This document shows positions 31,606 through 36,330 of a DNA stretch of 64,000 bases, one piece after another. This stretch comes from an uncultured Rhodospirillales bacterium. GTDB taxonomy: Bacteria > Pseudomonadota > Alphaproteobacteria > Acetobacterales > Acetobacteraceae. The notes under the pieces are model-generated. The model saw only the letters and a list, made by a program, of their open reading frames with translations. It did no database searches and was not told the DNA's origin. How positions within the stretch are numbered: position 1 is the first letter of the stretch; every line of letters begins with the position of its first letter. The position numbers and the translations under genes were made by a program. The DNA lies in contig CAILMF010000008.1 of the NCBI GenBank assembly GCA_903835235.1, positions 62,001-126,000 on the forward strand, written 5' to 3'.

Positions 31606-32592
31606 ATGCTGAACCGCCGCACGCTCCTCGCCGCCCCCGCCGCGCTGCTCGCCACCCCGGCGCTGGCGCAATCCGGCTTCCCCAACAAGTCCATCCGCCT
31701 GGTCGTCGGCTTCACCCCCGCGGGCACCACGGATATCGCCGCCCGCATCCTGGCGCAGGCGCTGGGCAACCGGCTCGGCCAGCAGGTGGTGGTGGAAAAC
31801 CGCCCCGGCGCCGGCGGCAATATCGGCAATGAGGTGGTCGCCAAGGCCGACCCGGACGGCCACACCCTGCTGATGGCCACCATCAGCAGCGCCGCCATCA
31901 ACTTCGGCCTCTACGGCCCGCGCATGCCGATCAAGCCCGAGGACCTGGTCGCCGTCGGCCTGCTGCTGCGGGTGCCCAACGTGATCTTCGTCACCAACAG
32001 CCTGCCGGTGCATTCGCTGCGCGAACTGGTGGCCTATGCCAAGGCCAATCCGGGCAAGCTGAACAACGGCTCCTCCGGCAGCGGCACCAGCCTGCACATG
32101 ACCGGGGAGCTGCTGAAGAACGTCGCGGGCATCCAGATGACGCATGTGCCGTTCCGCGGTTCGGGCCCCATGCTGCAGGAAGTCATCGCCGGCCGGATCG
32201 AGGTGGCGGTGGACAACCTGCCCAGCGTCATCGGCCATCTGAAGGAAGGCCGGCTGCGCCCACTGGCCATGACCACCGCCACCCGCAGCCCCGCCATGCC
32301 CAATGTCCCCACCACCGCCGAGGAAGGTTTTGCGGGTGTGGAAGCCACCGCCTGGTTCGGCGTGCAGGCCCCGGCCCGCACCCCGCGGGATATCGTGGAG
32401 CGCCTGGGCCGCGAGATCGACGCCGTGGCGAAGGACCCCGCCACCTGGGCCCGGCTGGAGGAACTCGGCGGCATGAAGCCGGATGTCGGGCCCGACCACG
32501 GCACCACGCCGGCGGGCTTCGAAGCCTTCATCAAGGCCGAGATCGCCAAGTGGGGCGAGGTGGTGCGCCGCAGCGGCGCGACGGTGGACTGA
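31606..32592 (+). CDS. Bug/TctC receptor, second of five in tandem
   Basis: A 328-residue receptor with signal peptide (NRRTLLAAPAALLATPALAQ). Core segments are KSIRLVVGFTPAGTTDIAARI, VVENRPGAGGNIGNEV and THVPFRGSGPMLQEV. It shares the INFGLYG...MPIKPEDLVAVGLLLRVPN region with the third and fourth members, which indicates these three are the most recent duplicates. The next gene follows after 88 bases. A role in carboxylate capture is inferred from the family. Confidence 0.9.
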   Translation: MLNRRTLLAAPAALLATPALAQSGFPNKSIRLVVGFTPAGTTDIAARILAQALGNRLGQQVVVENRPGAGGNIGNEVVAKADPDGHTLLMATISSAAINFGLYGPRMPIKPEDLVAVGLLLRVPNVIFVTNSLPVHSLRELVAYAKANPGKLNNGSSGSGTSLHMTGELLKNVAGIQMTHVPFRGSGPMLQEVIAGRIEVAVDNLPSVIGHLKEGRLRPLAMTTATRSPAMPNVPTTAEEGFAGVEATAWFGVQAPARTPRDIVERLGREIDAVAKDPATWARLEELGGMKPDVGPDHGTTPAGFEAFIKAEIAKWGEVVRRSGATVD

Positions 32593-32680
32593 ACCGGCAA
32601 CCCGGGGGGCAGCAACCCCTTCCCCCCGCGGCCAATTCCATCGCACCATCCCCGGCAACAATCAAAAACGGGGAAACGCC

Positions 32681-33670
32681 TTGCCCACCCGCCGCACGCT
32701 GCTCGCCGCCACCCTTGCGCTTCCGGCGGTGCATGCCCGCGCCCAGGGCGCATGGACGCCCACCCGCCCCATCCGCCTCATCATTCCCTTCACGCCGGCC
32801 GGCACCACGGACCTGGTCGGCCGCATCGGCGCGGAACGCCTCTCCGCCCGGCTCGGCCAGCAGGTGGTGGTGGAAAACCGCGCCGGCGCCGGCGGCAATG
32901 TCGGCGCCGATTTCGTCGCCAAAAGCGACCCCGATGGCCACACCCTGCTGCTGACCACCATCGGCACCGGCGCCATCAACTTCGCCGTCTATGGCGACAA
33001 GATGCCCTACAAGCCGCAGGACCTGGTCGCCGTGGGCCTGTTCATCCGCGTGCCCAACGTGCTGATGGTGCGGAAAGACCTGCCGGTCAGCAGCATCGCG
33101 GAACTGACCGCCCTGGCAAAAGCCCGCAATGGTGGCCTCAACTATGGCACCGCGGGCATCGGCAGCAGCCCGCATGTCTGCACCGAGCTGTACAAGATCA
33201 TGGCGGGCATCGACATGACCCATGTGCCCTACCGCGGCAGCGCGCCGATGCTGACCGAGCTCATCGCCGGCCGCGTCGATGTGGGCATGGACAACATCCC
33301 CTCCGCCCTGGCGCATTGCCGGGAAGGCTCGGTCAAGCCGCTGGCCACCACCGGCCTGCGCCGCAGCAGCGTGCTGCCCAACCTGCCCACCATGCAGGAA
33401 GCGGGGCAGCCGGGCTTCGAGACCACCGCCTGGTTCGGCATCCTCGCCCCCGCCGGCCTGCCGGCGCCGGTGCTGGCCCGGCTGAGCCACGAGATCGACG
33501 CCATCGTCAAGGAACCCGCCTTCCACGCCCGCATGGCCGAATTCGGCGGCGAGATGCCGGCCCTGACGCCGGATGGCGGCTCCTCGGCCGCGGGGTTCGA
33601 GAGCTTCATCGCCGCCGAACGCACCAAATGGGCGGATGTCGTCCGCCGCAGCGGCGCCAAGGTGGAATAG
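32681..33670 (+). CDS. Bug/TctC receptor, third of five in tandem, TTG start
   Basis: A 329-residue receptor. The start appears to be TTG (GGAAACGCC-TTG), since no ATG gives an intact signal peptide (PTRRTLLAATLALPAVHARAQ). Core segments are RPIRLIIPFTPAGTTDLVGRI, VVENRAGAGGNVGADFV and THVPYRGSAPMLTEL. INFAVYGDKMPYKPQDLVAVGLFIRVPN mirrors the second member. The fourth member begins four bases after its stop, so those two are certainly one transcript. Confidence 0.88.
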   Translation: MPTRRTLLAATLALPAVHARAQGAWTPTRPIRLIIPFTPAGTTDLVGRIGAERLSARLGQQVVVENRAGAGGNVGADFVAKSDPDGHTLLLTTIGTGAINFAVYGDKMPYKPQDLVAVGLFIRVPNVLMVRKDLPVSSIAELTALAKARNGGLNYGTAGIGSSPHVCTELYKIMAGIDMTHVPYRGSAPMLTELIAGRVDVGMDNIPSALAHCREGSVKPLATTGLRRSSVLPNLPTMQEAGQPGFETTAWFGILAPAGLPAPVLARLSHEIDAIVKEPAFHARMAEFGGEMPALTPDGGSSAAGFESFIAAERTKWADVVRRSGAKVE

Positions 33671-33674
33671 CGCC

Positions 33675-34649
33675 ATGCAACGCCGCACCCTGCTGGCCAC
33701 GCTGCTGGCCGCCCCCGCCCTGGCCCGCGCCGAGACCTACCCCACCCGCGCCATCCGCATGCTCGTCGGCTTCCCGCCCGGCGGCACCACGGATATCGCG
33801 GCCCGCCTGGTCAGCGAACGCCTCTCCGCCCGGCTCGGCGTGCCGGTGACGGTGGAGAACCGCCCCGGCGCCACCGGCAATATCGCCACCGAGGCCCTGC
33901 TGCACGCCGAGCCCGACGGCTACACCCTGCAGACCATCAGCGCCGCCGAGGGCGCGATGAACTACACCCTGTTCGGCCCCCGCAACCCCGCGCGGCCCGA
34001 GCAGGTGACCCAGGTGGGCCTGCTGATGCGCGTGCCCAACGCCATCTTCGTCCACCCCAGCCTGCCGGTGCATTCCATCGCCGACCTCATCGCCCATGCG
34101 AAGGCCAACCCGGGCAAGCTGAACTTCGGCAGCACCAGCCTGGGCGGCACCCCACACATGGGCCTGGAACTGCTGAAGCTGCGCACCGGCATCGACCTGC
34201 TGCACGTGCCCTTCCGCGGCGCCGGCCCGATGCTGATCGAGGCCATGGCCGGCCGGGTACAGGTGGGCAGCGACAACATGCCCAGCGTGATCGGCCACCT
34301 GCGGGATGGCCGGCTGCGCGCCATCGCCGTGACCAGCGCTGGGCGCAGCCCGGCGCTGCCCAGCCTGCCGGCGGTGGCCGAGACCGTCCCGGGCTTCGAG
34401 GCCACCGGCTGGTTCGGCGTGCAGGCCGCCGCTCGCGTGCCCGCCGCCATCATCGCCCGTCTCGGCGCCGAGATCGACACCATCACCCAGGAACAGACCT
34501 ACCGCCTGCGCCTGGCGGAGCTGGGCGCCGACCCGCCCGCCCTGACCCCGGCCGGCGGCACCACCCCGGCCAGCTTCGCCGCCTTCACCCAGGCCGAGAT
34601 CGGCAAATGGGGCGAGGTGATCCGCGCCAGCGGCGTGCGCCTGGAATAG
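33675..34649 (+). CDS. Bug/TctC receptor, fourth of five in tandem
   Basis: A 324-residue receptor with signal peptide (QRRTLLATLLAAPALARA). Core segments are RAIRMLVGFPPGGTTDIAARL, VENRPGATGNIATEAL and LHVPFRGAGPMLIEA. MNYTLFGPRNPARPEQVTQVGLLMRVPN aligns with members two and three, though it is more divergent. It starts four bases after the preceding gene. Ligand pocket loops differ from its neighbours, so the array could cover several related acids rather than raise the dose of one. Confidence 0.9.
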   Translation: MQRRTLLATLLAAPALARAETYPTRAIRMLVGFPPGGTTDIAARLVSERLSARLGVPVTVENRPGATGNIATEALLHAEPDGYTLQTISAAEGAMNYTLFGPRNPARPEQVTQVGLLMRVPNAIFVHPSLPVHSIADLIAHAKANPGKLNFGSTSLGGTPHMGLELLKLRTGIDLLHVPFRGAGPMLIEAMAGRVQVGSDNMPSVIGHLRDGRLRAIAVTSAGRSPALPSLPAVAETVPGFEATGWFGVQAAARVPAAIIARLGAEIDTITQEQTYRLRLAELGADPPALTPAGGTTPASFAAFTQAEIGKWGEVIRASGVRLE

Positions 34650-34695
34650 CGCGCCCGCTTGCGCTTGCTGCGGCGCAGCATGCTAGCCTGCGCTC

Positions 34696-35667
34696 ATGAC
34701 CCTGCCGCGCCGCGCCCTGCTCGCCCTCCCGCTCCTCGCCACCCCGGCCATCGCCCAACCGGCATGGCCCGCCGCCCGCCCGCTGCGCCTCGTGGTGCCC
34801 TTCCCGCCCGGCGGTGCCACGGATGCCGTGGGCCGCCTGACCGGCACGCTGATCAGCCAGCAGATCGGCCAGCAGGTCATCATCGAGAATCGCGGCGGCG
34901 CCGGCGGCAACCTGGGCGCCGAGCTGGCCGCCAAGGCCGACCCGGACGGCTACACGCTGCTGATCACCACCATCAGCGCCGCCGCCATGGGACCGCATTT
35001 GTACCCTCGCCTGGGCTACGACCCCATGCGGGACCTGGTGCCGGTGGGCCAGAGCTGCCACGTCTGCAACGGCATCATGGCCCGGCCGGACCTGCCGGTG
35101 GCCACGCTGAAGCAAGCGCTGGAACTGGCCAAGCGCCGCCCCGGCGAGCTGGTCTATGGCAGCCCGGGCAACGGCACCTCCGGCCACCTGGTGGGCGAAT
35201 ACCTGAACCGCAACGCCGGCGTCACCATGCAGCACGTGCCGTACCGCGGCACCGCACCGATGATGACCGACCTGCTGGGCGGCCGGCTGGACCTGGTGCA
35301 TGACAACCTGCCGGGCTACCTGCCGGCCATCCGCGACGGTCGCGCCAAGTTGCTGGCAGTGACCAGCCCGCAGCCCTGGTTCGCCGCCCCCGGCACCCCC
35401 ACCGTGGCCGAAGCCGCCGACCTGCCGGGCTTCTCCGCGATGATCTGGTGGGGCGTGCAGGTGCCGACCGGCACGCCGGAGCCGATCATGGACCGGCTCT
35501 CAGCCGCCATGGTCGCCGGCTTCAGCGGCACCGAGGCGCGCGACCGGCTGCACCAGCTGGGGATCGAGCCCGCCCCGCTGGACCGCGCCGCCTTCACCGC
35601 GCATGTGGCGGCGGAGTATCGGAAGTGGGGCGAGGTGGTGCGTCAGGCCGGGATCAGGGTGGATTGA
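34696..35667 (+). CDS. Bug/TctC receptor, fifth of five in tandem
   Basis: A 323-residue receptor with signal peptide (PRRALLALPLLATPAIAQ). Core segments are RPLRLVVPFPPGGATDAVGRL, IIENRGGAGGNLGAEL and HVPYRGTAPMMTDL. YPRLGYDPMRDLVPVGQSC sets it apart from members two to four and nearer to common Bug proteins. The array ends here, and an SOS-type promoter follows within 25 bases for the next gene. No TctA or TctB gene was found on either side. Confidence 0.9.
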   Translation: MTLPRRALLALPLLATPAIAQPAWPAARPLRLVVPFPPGGATDAVGRLTGTLISQQIGQQVIIENRGGAGGNLGAELAAKADPDGYTLLITTISAAAMGPHLYPRLGYDPMRDLVPVGQSCHVCNGIMARPDLPVATLKQALELAKRRPGELVYGSPGNGTSGHLVGEYLNRNAGVTMQHVPYRGTAPMMTDLLGGRLDLVHDNLPGYLPAIRDGRAKLLAVTSPQPWFAAPGTPTVAEAADLPGFSAMIWWGVQVPTGTPEPIMDRLSAAMVAGFSGTEARDRLHQLGIEPAPLDRAAFTAHVAAEYRKWGEVVRQAGIRVD

Positions 35668-35690: not shown

Positions 35691-35720
35691 TTGCATCTAC
35701 CAATCGTTCACTTTATGTTC
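35691..35720 (+). promoter_or_regulatory. SOS-type promoter: -35, -10 and LexA box
   Basis: TTGCAT (35691-35696) and TATGTT (35714-35719) are spaced by 17 bases. GTTCACTTTATGTTC (35706-35720) is an exact GTTC-N7-GTTC, the LexA box of alphaproteobacteria, and covers the -10 element. A promoter repressed by LexA is the simplest reading. The transposase-like gene starts 26 bases downstream. Confidence 0.72.
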
Positions 35721-35745
35721 ACGGCTCCCGCGCCGGACACCCCCC

Positions 35746-36330
35746 ATGCTCCCCCGCCTCACCAACCCCCGCCCCTGGCAACCGCTCGACGACGCCGAAC
35801 TCGCCGCCCTCATCCCCTTCTTCACCCGCCAGGGCAGCGGCCGCCCCATCTTCGATATCCGCGCCCGGCTCGACGCCATTCTGTGGGTTGCCTGCCACAA
35901 TGGCCCCTGGAAGGACCTACCCACAGAAATGGGGCCAGCCGACACCGCCTCCCGCCAGTTCCGCCGCTGGACGCATGCCGGGGTCTGGTCCCGCCTGCTC
36001 AAGGCCGTCGCGGACCCACGCGCCCCCGCCGCGCTGCGTCGGCTGGAACACTGGATCTGCCGCGCCTACCGCCGCGCGCTGCGCATCCTGAAGCTGGCCG
36101 GCATCGTCCTGGCCCGCCGCCTCGGCCTGCACAGCGCCCTGAACGCCCCGGCCCACCTGCTGCCCGACCCGGATTTGTCCAAAACGCTCATGCCGCTGGT
36201 CCAGGCCAAGGTCGCGGCGCTGATTGGTCGCTGCGACCGGGGCATGATCCCGGTCCTGCGCCTGGCCCGGGCCGCCCACCAGCTCTGCGGCGGCAGATCC
36301 CGCCTTCCCCGCTGGATGGCGCCGCCGTGA
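35746..36330 (+). CDS. Transposase N-terminal-domain-like protein (IS5/DUF4096 type)
   Basis: A 194-residue protein. Residues about 10-85 resemble the N-terminal domain of IS5-type transposases: WQPLDDAELAALIPFF, GRPIFDIRARLDAILWVACHNGPWKDLP and SRQFRRWTHAGVWSRLL. The rest is helical and basic, with no recognisable DDE catalytic core, and no flanking inverted repeats were seen. It is therefore not an active insertion sequence. An apparent LexA-controlled promoter lies directly upstream, which suggests a domesticated DNA-binding protein of the damage response. A truncated transposon remnant is the alternative. Confidence 0.65.
   Translation: MLPRLTNPRPWQPLDDAELAALIPFFTRQGSGRPIFDIRARLDAILWVACHNGPWKDLPTEMGPADTASRQFRRWTHAGVWSRLLKAVADPRAPAALRRLEHWICRAYRRALRILKLAGIVLARRLGLHSALNAPAHLLPDPDLSKTLMPLVQAKVAALIGRCDRGMIPVLRLARAAHQLCGGRSRLPRWMAPP

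Follow-up and report, generated by a model that had tools for sequence, protein, structure and literature searches.

The 64-kb window (the whole stretch of DNA analysed, 64,000 nucleotides) contains a gene that is one of eight paralogs in its genome, that carries four codons near-fixed at the nucleotide level, and whose codon motif is found again in non-coding arrays behind the same type of promoter. These features go beyond an earlier note on this DNA, which had inferred a domesticated transposase DNA-binding domain placed under an exact LexA box and serving in the SOS response. Mechanism aside, genomes with the gene show a testable pattern, in which four near-fixed codons turn up again in non-coding arrays at dispersed sites. 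The simplest mechanism using all the parts would, we infer, be a protein-sponge circuit under SOS control. The features of the locus are listed below; in the text, L and G numbers denote loci and genomes, and the genome and genus that the window comes from are called the source genome and the source genus.

35691..35719, plus strand: sigma70-type promoter as read from the sequence, with -35 TTGCAT at 35691-35696, a 17-nt spacer and -10 TATGTT at 35714-35719
35706..35720, plus strand: LexA-type box GTTCACTTTATGTTC, an exact GTTC-N7-GTTC that overlaps the -10
35746..36330, plus strand: open reading frame for a basic protein of 194 aa (pI 11.6), transposase-derived and lacking a catalytic core, with a predicted all-helical structure
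35788..35997, plus strand: DUF4096 (IS5-type N-terminal) domain, residues 15-84 (PF13340, E 3.6e-17)
36028..36291, plus strand: family-specific C-terminal helical part, residues 95-182 (AF2 helices), in the place of the DDE core
36172..36185, plus strand: codon-locked motif GATTTGTCCAAAAC (family consensus GATTTGTCCGAA), coding for DLS[EK]

The gene and its family

The IS5-type N-terminal domain named in the earlier note was recovered with a score of 62.8 bits against a Pfam cut-off of 34.3. DUF4096 was matched by all 39 aligned family members, and no other Pfam family matched more than one of them. The transposase model NF033580 (transpos_IS5_3) also gave E 3.6e-17, but its 62.8 bits lie below the cut-off of 110, and the match is confined to the N-terminal part of the protein; the likeness to the IS5 family covers residues 14-92. 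The absence of a DDE core was borne out as well: from column 85 of the 39-member alignment onwards, acidic residues make up at least 80% of the sequences at 141, 143 and 146 alone. In IS5-type relatives from Sedimentitalea and Marivibrio the DDE core begins after the domain, with DPDFEYVLVDAT; the VDAT segment of these two relatives is absent from the family. Structure prediction, which had been proposed as a check, returned an all-helical AlphaFold model with a mean pLDDT of 88.9, in which helices occupy residues 95-99, 101-126, 142-159 and 167-182. A PDB fold search with this model gave no match at E 0.001 and a second fold comparison with VIA-align reached Z values of at most 4.5, results that exclude nothing; a profile search of PDB sequences gave marginal matches only. 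The family proteins are strongly basic, with pI 10.6-12.0 and a charge of +13 to +25 in 53 members.

At a threshold of E 1e-20 the source genome (5.97 Mb) has eight family copies. One is truncated, and the six full ones other than the window gene have 58-67% identity to the window protein. The truncated copy (L008) stands in tandem with a full one (L004; G000:C1:17737-19867). Among 249 Acetobacteraceae genomes, 57 had family matches at E 1e-15, with up to nine per genome, and 50 of these 57 were kept at the stricter E 1e-20; the matches in the remaining seven genomes, all weaker than 1e-20, may be ordinary IS5 transposases. In a class-wide sample of 385 genomes, a single genome had a match at E 1e-20, namely the source genome itself. 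When named genomes were scanned for the window protein, seven loci emerged, five in uncultured Rhodospirillales/Acetobacteraceae MAGs and the other two in Sedimentitalea and Marivibrio.

In 34 ortholog pairs of the source genus, dN/dS values of 0.08-0.40 indicated purifying selection. Many paralogs of this genus have flanks that are common to different species, and for some copies the downstream flanks are common even to different genera (L003 with L046, L048 and L054; L032 with L040, L043, L049 and L050). Since a DDE core is missing from all 39 relatives, selection is purifying and neighbours are held in common, the reading of the gene as a stably inherited, catalytically empty, domesticated descendant of an IS5-type transposase N-terminal domain is well supported by sequence comparison, in agreement with what the earlier note had proposed. 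Two ortholog groups (L007/L027/L029 and L005/L021/L023) show very low dS (0.07-0.13), a hint of either recent exchange or additional constraint on the nucleotides of the gene.

The promoter and the LexA-type box

The promoter elements and the overlapping exact GTTC-N7-GTTC described in the earlier note were found at the same coordinates. The ATG of the gene, at 35746, lies about 25 bases past the box. Upstream, at 32483-35667 of the window, are three tandem genes for tricarboxylate-type substrate-binding (Bug-like) proteins, named by resemblance. One exact GTTC-N7-GTTC was seen in the 64-kb window where 0.51 was expected, and at least one match occurred in 40 of 100 shuffles; the box is thus close to what chance alone would give, and becomes meaningful only via its context. 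The source genome (6 Mb) likewise has 84 exact sites, against 55 for the backwards control, so single boxes can be chance.

The context is provided by the other members of the family. An exact box was found within 150 nt of the chosen start in 20 of 30 family loci of the source genus, where the genome-wide density predicts roughly 0.001 per locus. The carriers are all members of paralog groups A-E, plus L012 and L015; an exact box in this range was lacking in groups F and G and in L016. In other genera only 4 of 25 family loci had an exact box; the other 21 were without it, and many copies in these genera have TTCCTA- or ATCCTA-like promoters instead. The expectation that orthologs would have a LexA box upstream thus held for most of the source genus and failed for its groups F and G, for L016 and for most loci elsewhere. 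The difference between 20 of 30 and 4 of 25 loci makes LexA control look lineage-specific, and in the source genus it was probably acquired.

The same pattern was found at SOS genes. In the source genome and in all ten other genomes inspected (nine other genera), GAAC-N7-GAAC is present 64-133 nt upstream of lexA. Exact boxes of the source genome also precede ssb and an ImuA-like gene, whose match to the model (E 3.8e-24) stays under the cut-off. At uvrA, parE and a DNA-damage helicase (partial sequences) such a box lies close to the predicted start or slightly past it. No box was found at recA in five loci of the source genus with a pattern that allowed only some single mismatches. The window gene is likely under LexA control in its own genus, as judged from these sites. 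Service in the SOS response, as inferred in the earlier note, is plausible in silico for this genus; the LexA box is not general to the family, and the gene would play its plausible SOS role as part of a larger motif-based system.

A codon-locked motif that recurs outside genes

Codons 143-146 of the gene, GAT TTG TCC GAA, are near-fixed at the nucleotide level across the aligned family. Where the respective residue is present in aligned members, Asp143 is GAT in 36 of 36, Leu144 is TTG in 38 of 38, Ser145 is TCC in 38 of 38 and Glu146 is GAA in 27 of 28, while the family-wide share of TTG is 7.2%, that column included. When codons of the gene were ranked as outliers, TTG144 and GAT143 took the top two places, TCC145 the fifth and GAA146 the ninth. 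A residue other than leucine stands at position 144 in one of the 39 members (L034). Since GATTTGTCCGAA is kept in members down to 42% identity with the window protein (L035), the constraint appears to act on nucleotides.

Copies of the motif, in the form ATTTGTCCGAAAC, are also present at apparent non-coding loci, where they run in the sense direction, alone or up to 10 together; they cluster largely in non-coding, mostly C-rich tracts. In the source genome TTGTCCGAAAC occurs 51 times, and its backwards version not at all; from 79 relaxed-form copies in 21 loci of this genome, a few coding copies included, the consensus GGSSATTTGTCCGAAACCSGC was derived. The window copy reads TCCAAAAC, most arrays of the source genome read TCCGAAAC, and one array (L107) has both. 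The motif suffix matches between gene and arrays in other genomes (GAATAC in G144, GAAAC in G238), which is suggestive.

Many of the arrays share their promoter type with the gene. The source genome has 21 boxes of the form GTTC-N4-TATGTTC, 15 of them with TTG at the -35 position. The motif was found within 1 kb downstream of 14 of these 21 boxes (three of the 14 are family genes), and no match was found within 1 kb of the other seven. In the 1 kb behind the 21 boxes all 47 copies are in sense and none in antisense, and 11 of the genome's non-coding motif clusters follow such a box. For other GTTC-N7-GTTC sites, of which the genome has 63, the motif was downstream in one of the 21 examined. 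Counted the other way, from the motif, an exact GTTC-N7-GTTC within 250 nt before the first copy was present in 6 of 20 loci of the source genome. G099 (14 loci) and G079 (11 loci) had one such locus each, and G238 (8), G144 (23) and G094 (10) had none. One locus in G079, which belongs to another genus, has an exact GTTCGTGATATGTTC ahead of a three-copy motif array (L230).

Some copies lie beside SOS genes. Four follow directly after lexA in the source genome (L131 1634-1885, minus strand), and in three sister genomes the motif is near lexA in two, four and one copies (L132, L133 and L134); in the other two of the five sister genomes (L135, L136) the sequence examined around lexA had none. Three copies with 93-nt spacing come right after the ImuA-like gene (L123 2042-2228). 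One copy lies within the parC reading frame (L122 2085; FSLSETQA), again with a TTG leucine codon.

Of the 249 genomes, 57 have the gene and 192 do not; at least six copies of ATTTGTCCGAA, in-gene copies included, were found in 21 of the former and in none of the latter (Mann-Whitney on motif counts, p 3e-14, not corrected for phylogeny). With the stricter cut for the gene the figures were 21 of 50 and 0 of 199, and the difference in motif counts persisted outside the source genus (52 genomes with the gene, p 3e-12). The association is partly phylogenetic, and in-gene copies inflate the counts; when one copy per gene match was subtracted, only 12 of the 57 genomes had more than five, five being the highest total in a genome without the gene, and many gene-bearing genomes thus have few copies outside the genes. 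G003 has a three-copy cluster though the family gene was not found in this genome, which is 85% complete.

A CTCTTTGAAACCGTGCATCCG-like element precedes the first motif in 21 of 86 loci, and the same pattern on the antisense strand in 0 of 86; the pattern is loose and was written after such loci had been seen, and some of the 86 are coding copies. The loci come from six genomes of six genera, and the element was seen in five of the six. We take it to be boxA, an antitermination signal. The rrn leader of the source genome, which the element resembles, contains TGTTCTTTGACA; the 16S search made to locate rrn leaders succeeded in only one of three genomes, with a partial gene in the source genome. 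We also considered that the motif might be presented unpaired in RNA, and found this unsupported, as predicted folds of 104 copies gave 0.576 against 0.579 for shuffled letters. An Rfam search with 20 motif loci produced two matches, both below gathering, one of them to RsmZ (L180, E 0.015) on the strand opposite the motif.

A possible circuit and its alternatives

The common promoter type, the sense orientation of the motif and the association at genome level join the gene and the arrays in one system, and we consider it evenly balanced whether this system is built on an SOS-induced nucleic-acid-binding regulator that would have the arrays as its sponges. In such a system DNA damage would remove LexA, and the protein and the motif-bearing RNAs would be made together. 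The strongly basic protein would bind the motif, with RNA a likelier target than duplex DNA, and by binding the copy in its own message would limit its own synthesis. The arrays would act as sponges, as CsrB does for CsrA, leading to the release of other motif-bearing messages. The domestication and the shared regulon, as deduced from sequence, are the well-supported steps of this model. Its weakest step is the proposal that this very protein reads the motif, which is possible but on the doubtful side. Several results weigh against the model: 21 of 25 loci of other genera lack the box, recA showed none, seven of the 21 boxes and the lexA stretches of two sister genomes showed no motif, only 6 of 20 motif loci of the source genome follow an exact box, many genomes with the gene have few copies outside it, and predicted folds leave the motif no more unpaired than its shuffled letters. 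The model in its most specific form is more tentative again, and we regard it as rather unlikely in all its details: a transposase DNA-binding domain would have become an SOS-induced, sequence-specific RNA-binding regulator of AUUUGUCCGAAAC, with its own site present as locked codons, titrated by genome-wide sponge arrays, some of which have rRNA-type antitermination leaders. If right, it would add to the SOS response a post-transcriptional layer made from a domesticated transposase.

The motif may have a different reader, such as a trans-acting small RNA, an RNase or another RNA-binding protein, with the gene merely one tagged transcript. The presence of the motif after lexA and the ImuA-like gene and in the parC reading frame speaks for this, as does the G003 cluster in a genome where the family gene was not found, and the AUUUG within the motif resembles RNase E sites. 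All 21 genomes with counts of at least six are, however, among the 57 that have the family gene, with none among the other 192, and no antisense motif copy was seen in the 1 kb behind the 21 boxes. We consider a different reader unlikely, if well worth keeping in mind. It is more improbable that the motif acts as duplex DNA, that is, as an operator, decoy or nucleoid site bound by the protein or a cofactor. IS5-type transposases contact DNA with their DUF4096 end, and the motif copies are scattered and at some sites amplified in tandem, as this would allow; but the exclusively sense orientation of the 47 copies in the 1 kb behind the 21 boxes, and the antitermination-like leaders in 21 of 86 loci, point to RNA.

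Another question concerns the box itself, which instead of a LexA site may be a derivative of an older operator or -10 element of other genera (AGGA..TCCTATA). TTCCTA- or ATCCTA-like promoters are found at many copies in other genera, groups F and G of the source genus have TTTCCTATATCC- or AATTCCTACTATCC-like sequence at the position of the box, and GTTCCTGTTATGTTC is near-fixed in several groups. Against this, the spacer bases outside the -10 vary among the boxes of non-coding arrays, and lexA has the same box pattern in the source genome and in ten others. A palindromic AGGA-TCCT operator common to genes and non-coding loci of other genera can be made out by eye; tested formally as AGGA-N5-7-TCCT before motif loci, the signal was weak (13 against 7 of 46), and the operator is retained as a lead only. 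An origin of this kind seems to us about as improbable as the duplex-DNA reading. Finally, the gene might be the remnant of a transposase in decay or belong to a non-autonomous mobile element, for which one could cite that the truncated L008 adjoins the full L004 and that there are several paralogs per genome. Purifying selection, neighbours common to species and partly to genera, and the divergence of the paralogs in the source genome, which at 58-67% identity are not recent copies, already stand against it. On these grounds of synteny, selection and old divergence the mobile-element reading was dismissed, and decay is highly improbable.

Comparison with known systems

A search of the open-access literature found no account of the motif/gene pattern, and the literal motif matches that it listed were unrelated by title. 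Within the open literature and Rfam searched, the combination of near-fixed codons and non-coding arrays is therefore undescribed. The SOS box of Caulobacter is GTTCN7GTTC, and small RNAs are induced there by mitomycin upon DNA damage; an SOS box was not reported near the start sites of these small RNAs (PMC6237742). By contrast, the source genome has its 11 non-coding motif clusters behind such a box. Expression of an ISCR transposase has been linked, by the title of the report, to the SOS response (PMC13393415); that transposase belongs to a mobile element, whereas the window family is core-less and domesticated. With IS5-family transposases (NF033580, DUF4096) the family has the N-terminal domain in common, and it differs from them in the missing DDE core, the stable neighbours of many copies and the different C-terminal helical part. 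In comparison with CRISPR, the sequence common to different arrays is only about 11-14 nt, and some arrays consist of longer tandem units of their own.

Two other systems come closer in layout. RAYT/REP systems consist of a REP-associated tyrosine transposase and dispersed palindromes, and like them the present family is transposase-derived, kept by selection and tied to dispersed short motifs. The transposase superfamily is a different one, however, and a HUH/Y1 tyrosine transposase domain was not found, DUF4096 being the sole Pfam family in more than one member. There are also several paralogs per genome, and the motif is non-palindromic, sense-oriented, often tandem and locked into a reading frame. 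CsrA/CsrB (RsmA/RsmZ) is a protein-sponge system in which CsrA has its own fold and recognizes a GGA motif. The window protein is unrelated to CsrA, with no CsrA match in Pfam and an all-helical model, and the motif is ATTTGTCCGAAAC instead of GGA. The likeness is one of layout alone, with binding putative: a small basic regulator, multi-site non-coding antagonists, and a site in the regulator's own message.
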